DNA of 40,152 nucleotides from a virus. This document shows positions 1 through 40,152 of this stretch, in pieces; positions within the stretch are counted from its first letter, which is position 1, and each line of letters opens with the position of its first letter. The notes beneath the pieces were generated by a model. That model saw nothing but the letters and a program-made list of their open reading frames with translations, made no database searches and was not told the DNA's origin. The position numbers and the translations under genes are program-made. Location: positions 1 through 40,152 of the IMG/VR virus record IMGVR_UViG_3300013100_000009. One strand, written 5' to 3'.

Positions 1-123
1 CCGGCAACTCGGATGTTGATGATGGTCGGCTCGATCCCGATCACCTCGTTGGCCTTCTTCGCGGCCCGCAGTCCGGACTTGACGAGCTGCGCCGTCACGT
101 GGCCCTTCGCCTCGGAGCCGTAC
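1..123. repeat. Terminal direct repeat (copy 1 of 2)
   Basis: These 123 bases are identical to 40030-40152. They lie inside the purZ reading frame, which stays open and in frame when the ends are joined. The simplest reading is an assembly overlap of a circular or circularly permuted genome. A true short terminal repeat is less likely, because it would have to sit inside a gene. Confidence 0.9.
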
Positions 124-158
124 TGCGCTCCGACGACGACATCGATCTTCTGTGGCAT
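1..158 (-). CDS. purZ: PurZ, 2-aminoadenylosuccinate synthetase, N-terminal part (continues at 40029)
   Basis: This is the start of the purZ gene, split by the contig ends; bases 1-123 are repeated at 40030-40152. The ATG at 158-156 follows AAGGAG, and joining across the junction gives a 394-residue protein. Residues 10-19 read GAQYGSEAKG, which aligns with the PurA signature GxxGDEGKG but carries Ser15 where PurA has the catalytic Asp. Residues 53-59 are GPNAGHT, the conserved PurA NAGHT motif. Replacement of that Asp by Ser is the known hallmark of phage PurZ, which joins dGMP and aspartate with ATP as the first step to 2-aminoadenine nucleotides. The promoter and two operators lie at 178-228. 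Confidence 0.9.
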   Translation of the reverse strand, partial: MPQKIDVVVGAQYGSEAKGHVTAQLVKSGLRAAKKANEVIGIEPTIINIRVA

Positions 159-4114: not shown

Positions 4115-6808
4115 TTAGTCGGACTCCGCGCGTTCCAGGACCAGCTTAGCATACTCCGGGGTGAGCCTGCGGTAGCGGGCCACCTTGGAGGTGCCGGTGA
4201 TCTTGAACGACTTGGACGACCCATCGACCGTCACGCGGTCGGCCTGCTGGCTCAGGGCCGTCTTGGTTGCGGTGCGGGCGTCAACCCGGTGATTGTGCTC
4301 ACGGTTCCAGACATCGGACAGGACCGACGAGCTGATCCACACCTCGCGGCCTCCGGCCTGCTCCAGGTCCGGCGCTCCGTTGTCCTTGACGAACACCGGG
4401 GTGACCATCCCATCGAACCGGCCCATGTGCACCTGCGGCGCGGACAGGCCGGAGAACTGCCGGAGCGCCCAGGGGATGACCTCCATCGTCAGGGTGTTGT
4501 CGGCGGTCATGAGGCCCTCGTGCGCCTTCGCCCACTTCGCCACGCGCTGCGCGTGCTCCCCATCACCTCTCCACGCCCCTCCGTGGCCCAAGAGAGAATC
4601 CAGGAGCTGCGCCCCGGCCATGAGGACCGCTACCTTGTCCCCGTGCCGTCCCTTGCCCTCCTTCTTGGCCGTCCGTAGTGCTGCCAGCGTCTCGTCCACC
4701 CGCTGCAGCGCGAGGGACTGGAACCAGCCCGCGAGGACCGACAGTCCGAGCTGGCCCGGGAACCGCTGCATCAGCTCGACCACATCGTGCCACTGGGACT
4801 GGCCCTTGTTACGGGTGGACAGTCGGCCGGTCGGGGACGCCACGCTGATGATTACCGCCCGGTCCGCCAGCGCCTTCTGGGTACCCATTCCGAGTTGTTC
4901 ACCCGAAATGAGAATAGGGGCAACGATCTGGGTATTCTTGATACCGTTGCGGTCCATGTCCATCTTGGAGGCAGTCCCATTAGAGGTTGACGCCCGTAGT
5001 ATCTCACCGTAAGGCGAGAGGTCGTCGAGGTCGTCCGCCCAGACGATCCCATTGCGGTTTGCCGATGCACTGTCACGAAGCACCGGCCGCGTAGGAGCAA
5101 TCTGTCCACGGTGGTTGCCGTTGAGTGCAACCATGAGCGAGAAGAAGCCATTGGTTTTACCACTCTCTGATGCGGCCTCGACTCCGAAGAACGGGAATAG
5201 TGAGGTCTGGGTCTGAATCTGCGGTTTGAGCAGGCACGCCGCCCACCACGCGCCGAACACCGAGACGGTTTCCTCGTCCTGGTAGGTCAGCACCTCGCGG
5301 AGCACCTCCAGCGCGGTGGACTCGTCGTGCTCGAACCCGTAATAGAAGGGCGCAACGTCGCGCTCCAGGAGCCTCGGGTCGGCCACGATCCCGGAGTCCT
5401 CCTTGCTGGCCGGGCCGGACGGGAGGATGATCCCCTCGTGGGTGACGAACGCCTGCACATCGTCGGACCAGCCGAGGGTCGGGCTGATCTTGACCTCCGG
5501 GGGATTCTGGCTCTCGATGTAGCGCTGGACGCGCACGCCCACGCTCATCTTGGGGGACGCGTTGAACGGCTCGGAGTAGGTGGCACCGAAGGACGCCAGC
5601 CACCGGCGAGTCGCCCGGTCGTCGCCCAGGACGTCCCCGGCGATTGCCAGGTCGATCTGCTGCTTCTTCCAGATGAGCCGGAGCCAGTAGGACCGGTGCC
5701 CGTCCTCCGCCACTGCCACGCCGCGCGCCTCGATGTCGAAGTCGGCGTAGTCGGCCGTGCCCTCCACCGAGTCATCGCCGGACTTGACCATCGCCCGGCA
5801 GAGCAGACGGCCGCGCCCGTTGGAGACGAGGAACCCCGAGTCCGCCGAGGCGAAGCGCTCCGGGTGGTTCTCGTTCTCCGACACCCAGATCGAGTCGGCG
5901 GTCTTGTCGACCTCCGCCTGGTCGAGGGGTTCGGGGAGCTTGGCGTTCGCGTCCGAGACGAGCAGGTCGTAGAGGTCGCGCTTGTCCCGGTGCATCTTGG
6001 CCAGGTGACCGCAGACCTTGGTCAGCCAGTCGTTCCGGCCACCCTCGGCCGGTGGGTGCTGGAGCAGGTCAGTCAGGGTGCCGAGTGCCCGGGTCGTCTC
6101 CTTGGCCGTGGGCTTGCTCTTGCCGCCCGGGATGACCTGCATCCCCTTGCTGGCGGCGCGGGCCTCCGGCCCCAGAGCGATTCCGGCTTCGGCGAAGATC
6201 GCCGCCACCTCGTCGTCCTGGAGCAGGTGCTCGGCCCCGGCGTTGTCCGGCGCGACCGTGTAGAGCTTCCCGGTTTCCTCGTGCCGAGTTCCCGGCATGA
6301 TGATGTAGGAGCCGCGCCCGGTCTTGATGTCCATGCCGTCACCGAGCGCGCCGTTGCCGGACTGGATGCTTGCCGCTGCGGTGGCGGGGTCGTACTTGTA
6401 AATCAGGTGCCCGTTGCCGTTCTGTCGGCCGGACAGGTGCTTGCGGGTGTGGGGGAACGAGGTCAGGTAGCGACCGCCGTGGTTGAGGTCGACGTCGAAC
6501 GCGATCCGGTCGTCTCCGAGGTTCGCGCCGATCCCGGCGCTGGGGTGCTGGCCCCACCACTTGCGGATGGTGTCAGCGTCGGTCGTGCCGTCCCAGGCAC
6601 CGTGACCGATCTGCCCGCACTCGCCCCGGCAACGGGACTTACGGGCCTCGTTCTTGTGTGGGTTGGGGAACAGGGGGACCTTGGTCCCTGGTCGGATGGG
6701 GAACACGTGCCAGCCTTCGGCCGCGAGTGCAAGAGCCTGCTGCAATCCGGTGAGGGTCTGGGACTCCTGGTCGATCCTGGCGACGTGTTCAGGGTCCAGT
6801 CTTGGCAT
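4115..6808 (-). CDS. Primase-polymerase fused to SF3-type/DUF927 helicase
   Basis: This 897-residue protein has an N-terminal Prim-Pol (archaeo-eukaryotic primase fold) with the catalytic pair D105-x-D107 (IAFDVDLNHGG), the G-N-G-H134 segment and a Cys/His-rich insertion (CRGECGQIGH, residues 60-69). The C-terminal half resembles the DUF927 helicase family. It has a Walker A at about 540-552 (EAASESGKTNG), a Walker B at about 583-594 (IVWADDLDDL) and an arginine in ADRAVIISV. It would unwind DNA and make primers at the fork for the phage polymerase. The ATG follows AGGGAG, and a hairpin lies just upstream. No separate DnaB-type helicase is present. Confidence 0.88.
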   Translation of the reverse strand: MPRLDPEHVARIDQESQTLTGLQQALALAAEGWHVFPIRPGTKVPLFPNPHKNEARKSRCRGECGQIGHGAWDGTTDADTIRKWWGQHPSAGIGANLGDDRIAFDVDLNHGGRYLTSFPHTRKHLSGRQNGNGHLIYKYDPATAAASIQSGNGALGDGMDIKTGRGSYIIMPGTRHEETGKLYTVAPDNAGAEHLLQDDEVAAIFAEAGIALGPEARAASKGMQVIPGGKSKPTAKETTRALGTLTDLLQHPPAEGGRNDWLTKVCGHLAKMHRDKRDLYDLLVSDANAKLPEPLDQAEVDKTADSIWVSENENHPERFASADSGFLVSNGRGRLLCRAMVKSGDDSVEGTADYADFDIEARGVAVAEDGHRSYWLRLIWKKQQIDLAIAGDVLGDDRATRRWLASFGATYSEPFNASPKMSVGVRVQRYIESQNPPEVKISPTLGWSDDVQAFVTHEGIILPSGPASKEDSGIVADPRLLERDVAPFYYGFEHDESTALEVLREVLTYQDEETVSVFGAWWAACLLKPQIQTQTSLFPFFGVEAASESGKTNGFFSLMVALNGNHRGQIAPTRPVLRDSASANRNGIVWADDLDDLSPYGEILRASTSNGTASKMDMDRNGIKNTQIVAPILISGEQLGMGTQKALADRAVIISVASPTGRLSTRNKGQSQWHDVVELMQRFPGQLGLSVLAGWFQSLALQRVDETLAALRTAKKEGKGRHGDKVAVLMAGAQLLDSLLGHGGAWRGDGEHAQRVAKWAKAHEGLMTADNTLTMEVIPWALRQFSGLSAPQVHMGRFDGMVTPVFVKDNGAPDLEQAGGREVWISSSVLSDVWNREHNHRVDARTATKTALSQQADRVTVDGSSKSFKITGTSKVARYRRLTPEYAKLVLERAESD

Positions 6809-9243: not shown

Positions 9244-9570
9244 CTACTCCTTCGAGGGGCAGAGGAACCGGAGCGCGTTGTCCACGGCCGCGTCGTTGAA
9301 CTCGGAGACTCGCTTGTCGCCAGCCTTCGCCACCGACTCTTTCAGCTCGTCCCGCGTGACTCCCTTGGTCCAGGAGGTGCAGATGGAGTGGCCCAGCTTG
9401 AGCGCCGCGTCCTGCACCGGCCCGGTCCACTGGAACTCCAAGGACTTCGCGGTCAGGTACTGCGCGTCGAGGTACGAGTCCTCGGCCGGGGTGATCTTCG
9501 CGCCGGAGCACCCGGTGACCGCCGCGAGGACAACCCCCGCGACGACACCGAGGACGACCGCCCGGCGCAT
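9244..9570 (-). CDS. Secreted lipoprotein, DUF732-like
   Basis: This 108-residue protein has a signal peptide: positively charged MRR, a hydrophobic stretch to residue 19 and the lipobox V18-T-G-C21. Lipidation at Cys21 is expected after export. The mature part (SYLDAQYL, LGHSICTSW, VDNALRFLCPSKE) has two Cys and resembles DUF732 proteins, common in secreted proteins of Mycobacteriales. The ATG overlaps the stop of the upstream membrane-protein gene (TGATG). A phage-encoded surface lipoprotein suggests superinfection exclusion or receptor masking, but this is inference. Confidence 0.75.
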   Translation of the reverse strand: MRRAVVLGVVAGVVLAAVTGCSGAKITPAEDSYLDAQYLTAKSLEFQWTGPVQDAALKLGHSICTSWTKGVTRDELKESVAKAGDKRVSEFNDAAVDNALRFLCPSKE

Positions 9571-9728
9571 CACCACCACCCCATCAGGTTGCCGATGCCG
9601 CGCCCGACCAGGGCGATGCCGCCCAGGATGACGAGCACGAGCAGCACGGCGATCAGGGGGCCGACGATGTACCGGCCGATTGCGTAGCCGTTCAGCCGCG
9701 TGACCTTAGGCCGGTTGCGTGTCTTCAT
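9570..9728 (-). CDS. Small membrane protein
   Basis: This 52-residue protein has a basic N-terminus (MKTRNRPKVTRLNGYAIGR) and one transmembrane helix at about residues 21-42 (IVGPLIAVLLVLVILGGIAL). It ends GNLMGWW. GGAGGG lies 8 nt before the ATG. The stop overlaps the lipoprotein start, so both envelope proteins are probably made together. Confidence 0.7.
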   Translation of the reverse strand: MKTRNRPKVTRLNGYAIGRYIVGPLIAVLLVLVILGGIALVGRGIGNLMGWW

Positions 9729-36916: not shown

Positions 36917-37239
36917 CGGTTGTACCTTCCCGCGCGGCGCGCCTGGCGTGCCCGCTTGCTCTTGGCCCGGCGTGCTGCCTTGGCCGTCTCCTTGGCGTAA
37001 GCGCCACCCTCCACCGAGCGCCAGATCAGCTCGCGCCGGAGCGACACCTCCATGCCCTTTTCGAGCTTGGCGTCGTCGAGGTTGTCGAACACCATCTTGG
37101 GGTTGGGCTTGGTTACCTTGTACTGCGTCCCCGCCACCGAGCGCTTGGCCTTCCGGCGTGCCTTCCGCATCTGCTCCGAGGTCAGCGGCTTGGTCGCCTG
37201 CTGCTCCAGTGCCGCGTAATCCAGGGTCTTACTTTCCAC
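36913..37239 (-). CDS. Very basic small protein
   Basis: This 108-residue protein starts with GTG at 37239 (VESKTLDYAALEQQ), overlapping the dUTPase end by 11 nt. Both ends of the body are Lys/Arg-rich (QMRKARRKAKRSVAG and KAARRAKSKRARQARRAGRY), so nucleic-acid binding is likely. The family is unknown. Confidence 0.6.
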   Translation of the reverse strand: MESKTLDYAALEQQATKPLTSEQMRKARRKAKRSVAGTQYKVTKPNPKMVFDNLDDAKLEKGMEVSLRRELIWRSVEGGAYAKETAKAARRAKSKRARQARRAGRYNR

Positions 37240-37687
37240 TGCTACCAAATCCCTTCGTGCCTCGGGCGTGTGCGCCGAGTGCTTCGTCGTCGTTGATCTT
37301 CCGCATGACGGTGCGGGCCGTTGCGTTGTCGAGGATGATGAGCTGGCCGATGCGGTCGCCCGCGTCCACCCGCACTTCCTCGTTGGTGAGGTTCCAGACC
37401 CCGATGAACAGCTCGCCTCGGTACCCGGCGTCGATGATCCCGGTGTGCACCAGGAGTCCTCGCTTCCGCAAGGTCGAGCTGCGGCCGGTGAGCATCCCCC
37501 AGGACCACGACGGAAGCTCCATCGCGATCCCGGTGGGGATGTCGGTGAACGAGTGCGGGTCAATGATGGTCGTCTCGCTCACGTGCAGGTCCCACCCGGC
37601 GTCGTCATCGTGGGCGCGCACCGGGGTCTGCGGGTCGCCCAGCAGCGTGTCCAGGTGCTGGACTCGGATCACTTCGGGCCTAGTCAC
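37229..37687 (-). CDS. dut: dUTPase
   Basis: This 152-residue trimeric-type dUTP pyrophosphatase has all five motifs: AGWDLHVSE (30-38), GRSSTLRKRG (68-77), GIIDAGYRGEL (83-93), DRIGQLI (111-117) and RGTKGFGSSG (142-151). It turns dUTP into dUMP, keeping uracil out of DNA and feeding dTMP synthesis. The GTG start follows GGAGGG. Its place in the purZ operon groups it with the other dNTP-pool enzymes. Confidence 0.92.
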   Translation of the reverse strand: MTRPEVIRVQHLDTLLGDPQTPVRAHDDDAGWDLHVSETTIIDPHSFTDIPTGIAMELPSWSWGMLTGRSSTLRKRGLLVHTGIIDAGYRGELFIGVWNLTNEEVRVDAGDRIGQLIILDNATARTVMRKINDDEALGAHARGTKGFGSSGK

Positions 37688-38075
37688 GGTTCGCGGCCCT
37701 CCGCACTCGGAGCGCCAGCAGGTTGATCCACTGGACCACCCCGCGCCCGTTCTTGAACGAGTCCTTCCAGGTCTTACGCGACCAGGTGTGTGCGCCGCAC
37801 TCGTCCGGGTGGACCTCAGCGCCGACGACATCCACCAGGGGTGCATAGACTCGGAGGATTCCTTCGGCCAGCGCCTGGTCGCGGGTCCGGCCCTGCTCGA
37901 TGTAGATGGGCAGGTAGAACCGCGCGTCCTTGACCATCCATTCGATTGCCCGCCACCGCTCCGCGTCGACCCGGTTGCGCTCGGCAACCTCGGCCTTGCG
38001 GTCGGCCTTGACTACCGACTCCGGCTCTGCGGCCTGCATCGCCTGGTCCTCGGCTTCTCCCTCGTAGTTATACAT
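37680..38075 (-). CDS. Unknown helical protein in the Z operon
   Basis: This 131-residue protein starts MYNYEGEAEDQAMQAAEPES, after AAGGAG. The C-terminal two thirds (RWRAIEWMVKDARFYLPIYI, then VGAEVHPDECGAHTWSRKTW) are helical, with a possible active-site-like HPDECGAH segment. I see no HD or MazG pattern. It could still act on nucleotides given its neighbours, but nothing shows that. Confidence 0.68.
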   Translation of the reverse strand: MYNYEGEAEDQAMQAAEPESVVKADRKAEVAERNRVDAERWRAIEWMVKDARFYLPIYIEQGRTRDQALAEGILRVYAPLVDVVGAEVHPDECGAHTWSRKTWKDSFKNGRGVVQWINLLALRVRRAANRD

Positions 38076-38124
38076 TGGGCTTCTCCTTGTCGTACTCGGG
38101 GAGGTGCTCGGACCCGTTACTCAT
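38068..38124 (-). CDS. Possible 18-residue leader peptide
   Basis: The ORF MSNGSEHLPEYDKEKPNV starts within the end of the upstream gene and ends inside the next start region. It may serve translational coupling only. Support is limited to the overlap pattern. Confidence 0.25.
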   Translation of the reverse strand: MSNGSEHLPEYDKEKPNV

Positions 38125-38368
38125 CGTCGCCTCCGAACAGCCCATCGAGTGCCCGCGCCTGGAGGGGCGTCAGCTCGTTGGTCACCCGGACCTGGACCTG
38201 TTCGTCCAGCGTGATCTTCTGGGTGCCCTTGGGGTAGTCCGTCGCGGACTGGTTCGGGCCGTACTTGGGAATAGCGATCAGGCCGTTACCCAGGGCGACT
38301 GCCCGGATGGTCAGCTCCTGCCCGAGCTTTGTGTCCTTGACTCGTGCGTAGTTCGTGTCGCCGCTCAT
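38117..38368 (-). CDS. Unknown small protein after mazZ
   Basis: This 83-residue protein starts MSGDTNYARVKDTKLGQELT. It is beta-rich (ELTIRAVALGNGLIAIPKYG, KITLDEQVQVRVTNELT) with a short acidic end. The ATG overlaps the mazZ stop (ATGA), so the genes are translationally coupled. The family is unrecognised. Confidence 0.68.
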   Translation of the reverse strand: MSGDTNYARVKDTKLGQELTIRAVALGNGLIAIPKYGPNQSATDYPKGTQKITLDEQVQVRVTNELTPLQARALDGLFGGDDE

Positions 38369-39003
38369 TCGGGCCACCCTCCTGTCTCGCGGATGCGCTG
38401 AACCATCCGCACGTAGATACCGATGTCGTGGATCGTGTCGTCGGACACGGGGCGACCTTCCGCCACTGCTGCGGCCCATCGCCCCATCTTGCCCTGGATG
38501 TAGAAGTAGATACCCAGCTCGGCCAGGTACCCCTCCTGCGTGTTGCCGGACCCGAGCAGCGGACCCGGCTTGACCCCGGCCTCGACCAGCTTACGGCCGA
38601 TGTCGATCAGGTCCTGGGCGCGACCCTTACCGCCGTACTCCTGCATCTTGGCGGTCAGGGGCATGATTTCCTGCGCGGCCTTGGTCATCCACCAGTCGTG
38701 CAGGTCCTCGTTCACCGGCACGGCCTGGCCCGCCGTGGGGCCGTAGTCGCCGGACATGACCTGGGCCACGGTGTCGGCCTTCTGTCGTGCCAGCAGCTCC
38801 TGGTACCCGTCGTCGGCAGCAGCCGAAAGCTGCGCCTCCCGCACCAGGTCGCGCTCTCCATCGGGCGAGACGACCACGGACGGCCCTCCGGGAACCACGC
38901 GGCCCTCGGACCAGTCGAAGCGCCCGCGCGGCTTCTCCGGTTCGTCCGTGAGGCGCGGAGGGCCTGCGGGACGGTGGTACAGCGGCAGTCGCTGCTCCGT
39001 CAT
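38365..39003 (-). CDS. mazZ: MazG-like nucleotide pyrophosphohydrolase (MazZ candidate)
   Basis: This 212-residue protein has an unstructured Pro/Arg-rich head (1-50). The all-alpha NTP pyrophosphohydrolase core occupies about 100-212: E157 and E162 in QEGYLAELGIYFYIQGK, and D188, D189 and D193 in SDDTIHDIGIYVRM, the acidic metal site of the MazG superfamily. In Z-DNA phages the partner MazZ turns dGTP/GTP into dGMP, the PurZ substrate. The ATG shares a base with the purZ stop (TGATG) and is preceded by the perfect Shine-Dalgarno GGAGGTGATC. The MazZ role is inferred from this linkage. Confidence 0.75.
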   Translation of the reverse strand: MTEQRLPLYHRPAGPPRLTDEPEKPRGRFDWSEGRVVPGGPSVVVSPDGERDLVREAQLSAAADDGYQELLARQKADTVAQVMSGDYGPTAGQAVPVNEDLHDWWMTKAAQEIMPLTAKMQEYGGKGRAQDLIDIGRKLVEAGVKPGPLLGSGNTQEGYLAELGIYFYIQGKMGRWAAAVAEGRPVSDDTIHDIGIYVRMVQRIRETGGWPE

Positions 39004-40152
39004 CAGATCACCTCCGGGTCCGTGCCGACCTGCTGGTCGGTGTGCTGGGCCTCGACCGATCCGCCGACGACCCAGGCGATGTCGGTGGGCGAGGTCGTGA
39101 ATCCGGCCACGTCCGTGCCGACTGCATCCTCGACCGACCGGAGCCAGGCCTCGGCCTCCTGCACGACCTCGGGGTCGAAGTCGGCCACGTTCGAGTCGCC
39201 GTTGAACCCGGCGATCCCGGGGAACTTCTGGTCGAGCATGGTCACGACCACGTGGACCACACCGGCCCCACCGTTGGCCTGGACTGCGCGGCGCACCAGG
39301 TTGGTGTCCCACTCGCCCACGCGCCGGACGAGCTGCGTCACGGTCGTGCGCTCTTCGGGCAGGCCCAGGTCCTCCCAGGTCGTCTCCCCGGCGAGCGGGC
39401 CGGAGTTCCCGGCGACTCGGATCGGGTAGACCCGCGCCACCGCGTAGACATCGAACTGGATCACGGATGCACGCCACGGCTGGAGTCCGGCCATGGTCAG
39501 GAAGGCGTCGGCGGTCGTGTCCGAGCTGGTGCACTGCGGGTAGTGTCCGGCGTGCAGTCCGAGGCCGTAGCCCTGGGTGCCCTCCACGATGATGTGCTGG
39601 TAGGCGTCCGCGAAGTCGTCGTGGGAGTACAGGTCCTCCGGTGCGGCGAGTGCCACACCCACGGCCGTGAGTCGCTCGACCACATCCGGGTCGTCGATCA
39701 CGCGCTTGGCCTTGCGCATCAGGCGGTCAGCTCGCGCTGCTCCGATGCCCTTGCCGGTCGACCCGGCGCGTGCGACCAGGGTCGCGTCCGCCTCGTCCTG
39801 CTTGTGCTTCGGCTCGATGAGCGTGGCCTCGGGCGACACGAACAGGTTCTCCACCGAGTGACCGTGGTCCCTCAGCAGGAGGATTTCGTCGTAGAGCACC
39901 TCCGGCTCGATTTCGGAGCCGGGCGCGATGTAGAGCACGACCTCATCGCCCAGCGCGGCACCGACCGGAATCTGGCGGAGCGGGAATCGGTTCCCCTCGT
40001 CGTCGTAGACCGTGTGCCCGGCGTTCGGCCCGGCAACTCGGATGTTGATGATGGTCGGCTCGATCCCGATCACCTCGTTGGCCTTCTTCGCGGCCCGCAG
40101 TCCGGACTTGACGAGCTGCGCCGTCACGTGGCCCTTCGCCTCGGAGCCGTAC
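39003..40152 (-). CDS. purZ: PurZ, 2-aminoadenylosuccinate synthetase, main part (start lies at 158 across the junction)
   Basis: These bases encode the bulk of PurZ; 40030-40152 duplicate 1-123. The PurA-family fold is clear from NAGHT (residues 55-59), GSTGKGIGA (142-150), the IVEGTQGYGLGLHAGHYPQC segment (about 200-219) and YPIRVAGNSGPL (about 254-265). The product ADP-aspartate chemistry is as in PurA, but the family substrate is dGMP instead of IMP. After the host AMP-succinate lyase and kinases, the product becomes dZTP. It is followed without a gap by the MazZ candidate. Confidence in PurZ over PurA rests on Ser15 and on the polymerase and MazG-like neighbours. Confidence 0.9.
   Translation of the reverse strand, partial: YGSEAKGHVTAQLVKSGLRAAKKANEVIGIEPTIINIRVAGPNAGHTVYDDEGNRFPLRQIPVGAALGDEVVLYIAPGSEIEPEVLYDEILLLRDHGHSVENLFVSPEATLIEPKHKQDEADATLVARAGSTGKGIGAARADRLMRKAKRVIDDPDVVERLTAVGVALAAPEDLYSHDDFADAYQHIIVEGTQGYGLGLHAGHYPQCTSSDTTADAFLTMAGLQPWRASVIQFDVYAVARVYPIRVAGNSGPLAGETTWEDLGLPEERTTVTQLVRRVGEWDTNLVRRAVQANGGAGVVHVVVTMLDQKFPGIAGFNGDSNVADFDPEVVQEAEAWLRSVEDAVGTDVAGFTTSPTDIAWVVGGSVEAQHTDQQVGTDPEVI
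40030..40152. repeat. Terminal direct repeat (copy 2 of 2)
   Basis: This stretch is identical to 1-123. Removing one copy gives a 40029-bp circle with purZ intact. Confidence 0.9.

Follow-up and report, generated by a model that had tools for sequence, protein, structure and literature searches.

A gene family linked to purZ0 in the circularly closed genome of an uncultivated PurZ0-branch phage

Does an uncultivated phage that carries a purZ-like gene beside a family A DNA polymerase replace the adenine of its DNA by 2-aminoadenine (Z), and which enzymes would supply and clear the nucleotide pool? The question is raised by the stretch analysed here, hereafter the window, which comprises the 40,152 nucleotides of IMG/VR virus record IMGVR_UViG_3300013100_000009 (locus numbers beginning with L are our own). 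The sequence-only reading had described a Z-genome system made of purZ, a mazZ candidate following it in the same operon (here gene 2) and a Klenow-type polymerase. Family models, trees and residue signatures bear out the PurZ and the Z-type polymerase, while the mazZ part of this description falls away. Phages with Z genomes are an established kind; what is new is gene 2, the representative of a family linked to purZ0.

The two ends of the window carry an exact direct repeat of 123 bp, and the contig therefore closes to a circle of 40,029 bp (Table 1). This closure completes the purZ frame, which is interrupted at the window end: it starts with the ATG at 158, crosses the seam, stops at 39003 and encodes 394 residues. 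In the circular genome the polymerase gene lies immediately upstream of purZ, the Prim-Pol gene is also upstream, and gene 2, two small genes and the dUTPase gene follow downstream on the same strand. As had been claimed, the two genes overlap: gene 2 starts on the last base of the purZ stop, and the A at 39003 is the single base common to both. We take the window to be the complete genome of a PurZ0-branch phage that has not been cultivated, with an actinobacterium as the probable host. GATC is not avoided in this genome, which is uninformative. A phage gene at 9244-9579 (minus strand) encodes a DUF732 domain (PF05305, 1.4e-6).

Table 1. Features of the window that are discussed in the text
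Feature	Position	Strand	Remarks
Terminal direct repeat, left copy	1-123		exact 123-base match with right copy
Terminal direct repeat, right copy	40030-40152		exact 123-base match with left copy
purZ (PurZ0 type), residues 13-394 and stop	39003-40152	-	frame runs off window end, crosses seam
purZ 5' end, ATG at 158-156	1-158	-	translation over circular join
Gene 2 (earlier mazZ candidate), 212 aa	38365-39003	-	purZ0-linked family; conserved C-terminal domain at residues 97-212
83-aa gene between gene 2 and dut	38117-38368	-	overlaps gene 2 stop
131-aa gene between gene 2 and dut	37680-38075	-	no Pfam or PHROG match
dUTPase-like gene, DutZ candidate, 152 aa, not fused to DmtZ	37229-37687	-	PF00692, 1.7e-25
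Family A DNA polymerase with exonuclease domain, 731 aa	270-2465	-	PF00476; NF038381, 860 bits
Primase/polymerase (Prim-Pol)	4115-6808	-	PF09250, phrog_5177

The 394-residue protein had been described as a PurA homologue with the PurZ-type serine, and so it is. It reads GSEAKGH where E. coli PurA has GDEGKGK, the catalytic Asp of PurA corresponding to S15, a position held by D in the three PurA proteins and by S in every PurZ and PurZ0 protein compared. At seven positions of the alignment the PurZ and PurZ0 proteins compared share a fixed residue that differs from those of the three PurA, and the window protein has the PurZ residue at all seven; two are this Ser and the Thr that corresponds to T273 in S-2L PurZ, both reported as substrate-interacting (PMC8342488). 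The NCBI PurZ model NF038379 scores 346.4 bits (cut-off 300, 1e-103), the PurA models stay far under their own cut-offs, and within the phage collection its top matches are to PurZ0 proteins of phages; the closest solved structure is 7vf6, the PurZ0 of Archimedes. An ordinary PurA of host origin would share the membership of PF00709. The Asp-to-Ser change with six further PurZ-only residues, the model scores and the PurZ0 matches all speak against such an origin, which is thereby reduced to a negligible probability. Phylogeny with PurZ and PurA references places the protein on the PurZ0 side of the branch, outside both PurZ and PurA, with moderate support for the PurZ0 node (77/99, 76% of bootstrap trees) in a tree of only 19 rows. 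It groups there with the PurZ0 of the actinophages Wayne, Ghobes and Goodman, that of Curtobacterium phage Parvaparticeps being its nearest neighbour.

The record CAKLQH020000034.1 (L026) is filed as an Acinetobacter phage and carries purA beside the bacterial housekeeping genes epd and hisZ, so that this stretch looks like host DNA; records of this kind would inflate the PurA counts in phage collections.

The proofreading family A polymerase noted just upstream of purZ is likewise present, with the 3'-5' exonuclease motifs SLDTET, NFHHAKFD and YADQDA, a PF00476 domain and adjacency to purZ in the circle. The NCBI model of the aminoadenine-incorporating polymerase DpoZ, NF038381, scores 859.8 bits (cut-off 350, 1e-258); this match and that of PurZ are far beyond chance. 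In the tree, the polymerase falls with those of Wayne, Ghobes and Goodman into the DpoZ clade matching PurZ0 (support 90/94). Its motif B (NFSLIFG) has Phe at the Tyr steric gate, described as the only characteristic change common to both DpoZ clades (PMC8599892). This mark is not exclusive to DpoZ: the 14 kb of Streptomyces phage Microdon that were read encode a polymerase with Phe and have no annotated purZ, and the PurZ0 phage Hiyaa keeps Tyr. The Microdon polymerase (L107:5609-7971), the gene of which adjoins a MazG gene, is the closest to the DpoZ clade and is possibly of an ancestor-like type.

A third member of the set, the dUTPase-like DutZ candidate, had not been listed in the sequence-only reading. 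It is 58.6% identical over 133 residues to the dUTPase part of the Wayne DmtZ-DutZ protein and 47% identical to Ghobes gp55; for the DutZ proteins of Wayne and Ghobes, hydrolysis of both dATP and dGTP to monophosphates has been reported (Poubanne et al. 2026, PMC12884076). A shortened uracil hairpin was considered as a DutZ signature and dropped, as phage dUTPases in the PDB align there with no gap. The other known pool enzymes were also sought. Neither DatZ (PF12917, the YfbR-like HD phosphohydrolase, at E up to 1), nor DUF5664 (PF18909), nor a MazZ of the PF04447 type gave a match in the window genome. The best six-frame match to DmtZ had an E value of 1.2, the Ghobes and Hiyaa controls giving 1e-50 or better. 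PurB (adenylosuccinate lyase) was not found in the window either. PurB-like adenylosuccinate lyases occur in the PurZ0 phages Ghobes (gp36, L108:1-223) and Hiyaa (gp76, L016:11480-12853), this step being otherwise left to the host.

In the pathway that we propose, PurZ would couple aspartate to dGMP, the product would be brought to dZTP by the host PurB and nucleotide kinases, and the DpoZ-type polymerase would insert Z opposite T. The dUTPase-like DutZ would remove A by hydrolysing dATP and provide dGMP by hydrolysing dGTP; gene 2 may add a further pool enzyme, in the slot held by DUF5664-1 in Arthrobacter phages and by MazZ in other Z phages. By analogy with the relatives, the enzymes of the set probably have these activities and the virion DNA probably contains Z; resistance to restriction enzymes is inferred from known Z relatives. 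The failure to find DatZ, MazZ, DmtZ and DUF5664 in the window could be taken to mean that the pool enzymes are incomplete and that A is replaced only partly, or that the DNA is normal. We consider this improbable, as the PurZ0-DpoZ-dUTPase set is intact, as it is in the relatives, and as dutZ is found in 98 of 98 PurZ0 genomes and dmtZ in only 85 of them (PMC12884076). No datZ or mazZ has been described in the PurZ0 branch (PMC12884076).

What, then, is gene 2? It had been called a mazZ candidate and given a MazG fold. The gene has no match in Pfam, PHROG or NCBIfam, and profile comparisons (hhalign) with MazG, MazZ-1, MazZ-2 and DUF5664 gave scores of about 10-14, the level of shuffled profiles (MazZ-1 11.7, MazZ-2 11.4, DUF5664 9.7); MazZ-2 is without a Pfam model, and this comparison used a profile of only three MazZ-2 sequences. 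Candidate identities as MazZ, MazG or DUF5664 were rejected on these scores. AlphaFold2 produced all-helical, four-helix models (mean pLDDT 85 and 91). Their structural neighbours include iMazG (Z 4.0-4.3) and S-2L MazZ (7ody; Z 4.7, 3.8 Å over 65 residues), at values that do not rise above the noise for helical models. Foldseek against the PDB returned mostly 14-3-3 proteins and other helical noise, and comparison with solved structures by sequence gave nothing relevant. None of the sequence tests identifies gene 2 as MazZ, and the mazZ label should be dropped. It might still be a true MazZ or MazG (d)GTP pyrophosphohydrolase that has diverged past sequence recognition: its place right after purZ, as in S-2L and ZP6, and the all-helical model with iMazG and S-2L MazZ among its structural neighbours are in keeping with this. 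With the MazG, MazZ-1 and MazZ-2 profiles at shuffle level and the structural Z of 4.0-4.7 within noise, however, we hold it unlikely.

The only family compared whose profile match to gene 2 exceeds that of column-shuffled profiles is DUF6378 (PF19905), with a score of 26 against 11 ± 2.2 and none of 400 shuffles as high; the hhalign probability of this match is only 34%. DUF6378 is also the commonest weak Pfam match within the gene 2 family (5 of 55 members, best E 0.0023), and a PF19905 search with the window gene 2 itself gave no match. The two families share a YG motif, K-x-x-R and a closing D-[ST]-x-x-D-x-x-x-Y, whereas gene 2 has in addition a linker insertion and a further N-terminal helix, in which a W-W is invariant. 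In a viral structure library, gene 2 retrieved mainly its own family, followed by weak matches that included one 'nucleotide modification associated' protein and one DUF6378 protein; a comparison of DUF6378 itself with the PDB gave no relevant structure. On these sequence comparisons gene 2 may at best be a remote DUF6378 relative.

DUF6378 proteins occur in several Z phages. Gp31 of Ochrobactrum phage OH (L023:4469-4969), annotated as 'phosphofructokinase', matches PF19905 at 5e-23 and is encoded directly upstream of purZ; its relatives include several mycobacteriophage genes that bear this annotation too. In PurZ-type phages the domain is found in ZP6 gp19 (L024:7219-7491, 2.7e-10) and in S-2L (L243:1342-1644, 3.3e-7), and the gene 2 profile picks up the C-terminal part of both proteins. 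This distribution is only suggestive, since relatives of the OH protein are present in more than 400 other phage records; a search of the viral contigs seeded with it found no relatives.

The gene 2 family is defined by its C-terminal ~110 residues, in which W, W, K, Y, E, K, R, S, D, D and Y, among others, are invariant; the N-terminal extensions vary. It occurs in 31 of 50,697 phage records (Microbacterium 18, Gordonia 6, Streptomyces 5, Curtobacterium 1, Micrococcus 1), and these numbers equal those of the non-Arthrobacter PurZ0 phages, the two sets having been matched by counts per genus. None of the 105 Arthrobacter PurZ0 phages carries it, and in the two examined DUF5664-1, which Arthrobacter PurZ0 phages are described to carry (PMC12884076), occupies the slot. 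In viral contigs found by purZ alone, gene 2 adjoins purZ0 in all eight. Conversely, among the best 80 of the 82 IMG/VR loci found by gene 2, purZ0 is present in 79, its usual place being directly upstream of gene 2 with two exceptions: in L041 purZ is not visible because the contig begins about 400 bases before the gene 2 match, and in L080 the purZ match lies on the opposite strand. As the patterns for this 80-locus search came from PurZ0-linked copies, distant and unlinked members could be missed. The family is tightly linked to purZ0.

A scan of bacterial genomes, seeded with a 14-row alignment, gave a single match to gene 2, the contig CAIOKD010000330.1 (L235), binned as Verrucomicrobia. 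The presence of purZ0, gene 2, a DmtZ-like gene and dut makes a phage origin of this contig probable, and it hints at hosts beyond the actinobacteria. We found no description of the gene 2 family in a literature search of mostly open-access coverage, which left the main PurZ0 paper outside. Nor does the 2026 survey, which annotated genomes by Pfam best hits and two hand-made models, list the family with the genes that it describes (PMC12884076).

The gene order of the window (polymerase, purZ0, gene 2, small genes, unfused dut) recurs in Parvaparticeps, in Goodmanvirus (Goodman, Milani, Sucha), in Micrococcus phage Olihed and in Microbacterium phage Theresita, in the searched loci of which DmtZ was also not detected. 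These phages are nevertheless distant from the window, with PurZ proteins 50-57% identical and scattered DNA similarity of ~75% over 6% of 25 kb, and their small genes between gene 2 and dut differ. The Wayne-type Arthrobacter phages (Korravirus) have PurZ0, a DpoZ of the same clade and the DutZ domain in common with the window, but DmtZ is fused to DutZ and DUF5664-1 replaces gene 2 (PMC12884076). Ghobes-type Gordonia phages share PurZ0, a gene 2 homologue (gp51) and a separate DutZ; they have DmtZ and adenylosuccinate lyase, both of which the window is without. The Z phages of the S-2L and phiVC8 type show the same Ser and Thr signatures in PurZ and a small gene right after purZ, yet they differ in the PurZ branch, in possessing DatZ and MazZ, and in having a DpoZ of the other clade or none.

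The slot after purZ has various occupants: mazZ in S-2L, a MazG-type gene in ZP6, DUF5664-1 in Wayne and a dATP/dGTP pyrophosphohydrolase in Bhz9. As the searches of the window for DatZ, MazZ, DUF5664 and DmtZ were negative, the foremost candidate for a second enzyme of the nucleotide pool is gene 2. Its position after purZ, the absence of the other pool enzymes and the conserved charged residues make a pool role the best guess, and we predict such an enzyme with evenly balanced confidence. The alternative is a non-enzymatic partner of PurZ0 (a subunit, regulator or scaffold), with DutZ alone depleting dATP and supplying dGMP. The strict adjacency to purZ0 with overlapping start, the variable N-terminal extensions and the fact that DutZ holds both activities in Wayne and Ghobes (PMC12884076) would fit this. 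Against it stand the proven dATP/dGTP hydrolase in the same slot of Arthrobacter phages, the catalytic look of the conserved E, K, R, D and D, and the remote relation to DUF6378; such a partner seems to us rather unlikely, if less so than a diverged MazZ.

Returning to the pool-enzyme reading, its specific form is held a little more tentatively: gene 2 could represent a new family of dNTP pyrophosphohydrolases, or of another pool enzyme, dedicated to Z-genome synthesis in the PurZ0 branch. With the same reserve, the family could be a further independent solution beside MazZ-1, MazZ-2, DUF550/DUF5664 and DutZ, which would probably have escaped notice for want of a Pfam model.

The window adds one more uncultivated genome to the 2-aminoadenine phages, with a corrected gene call in that it has no recognisable mazZ or datZ. 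The gene 2 family may regulate how DNA building blocks are supplied in these viruses, and if it makes dGMP or removes dATP, it would be a missing enzyme of the PurZ0 pathway and a ready target for an assay.
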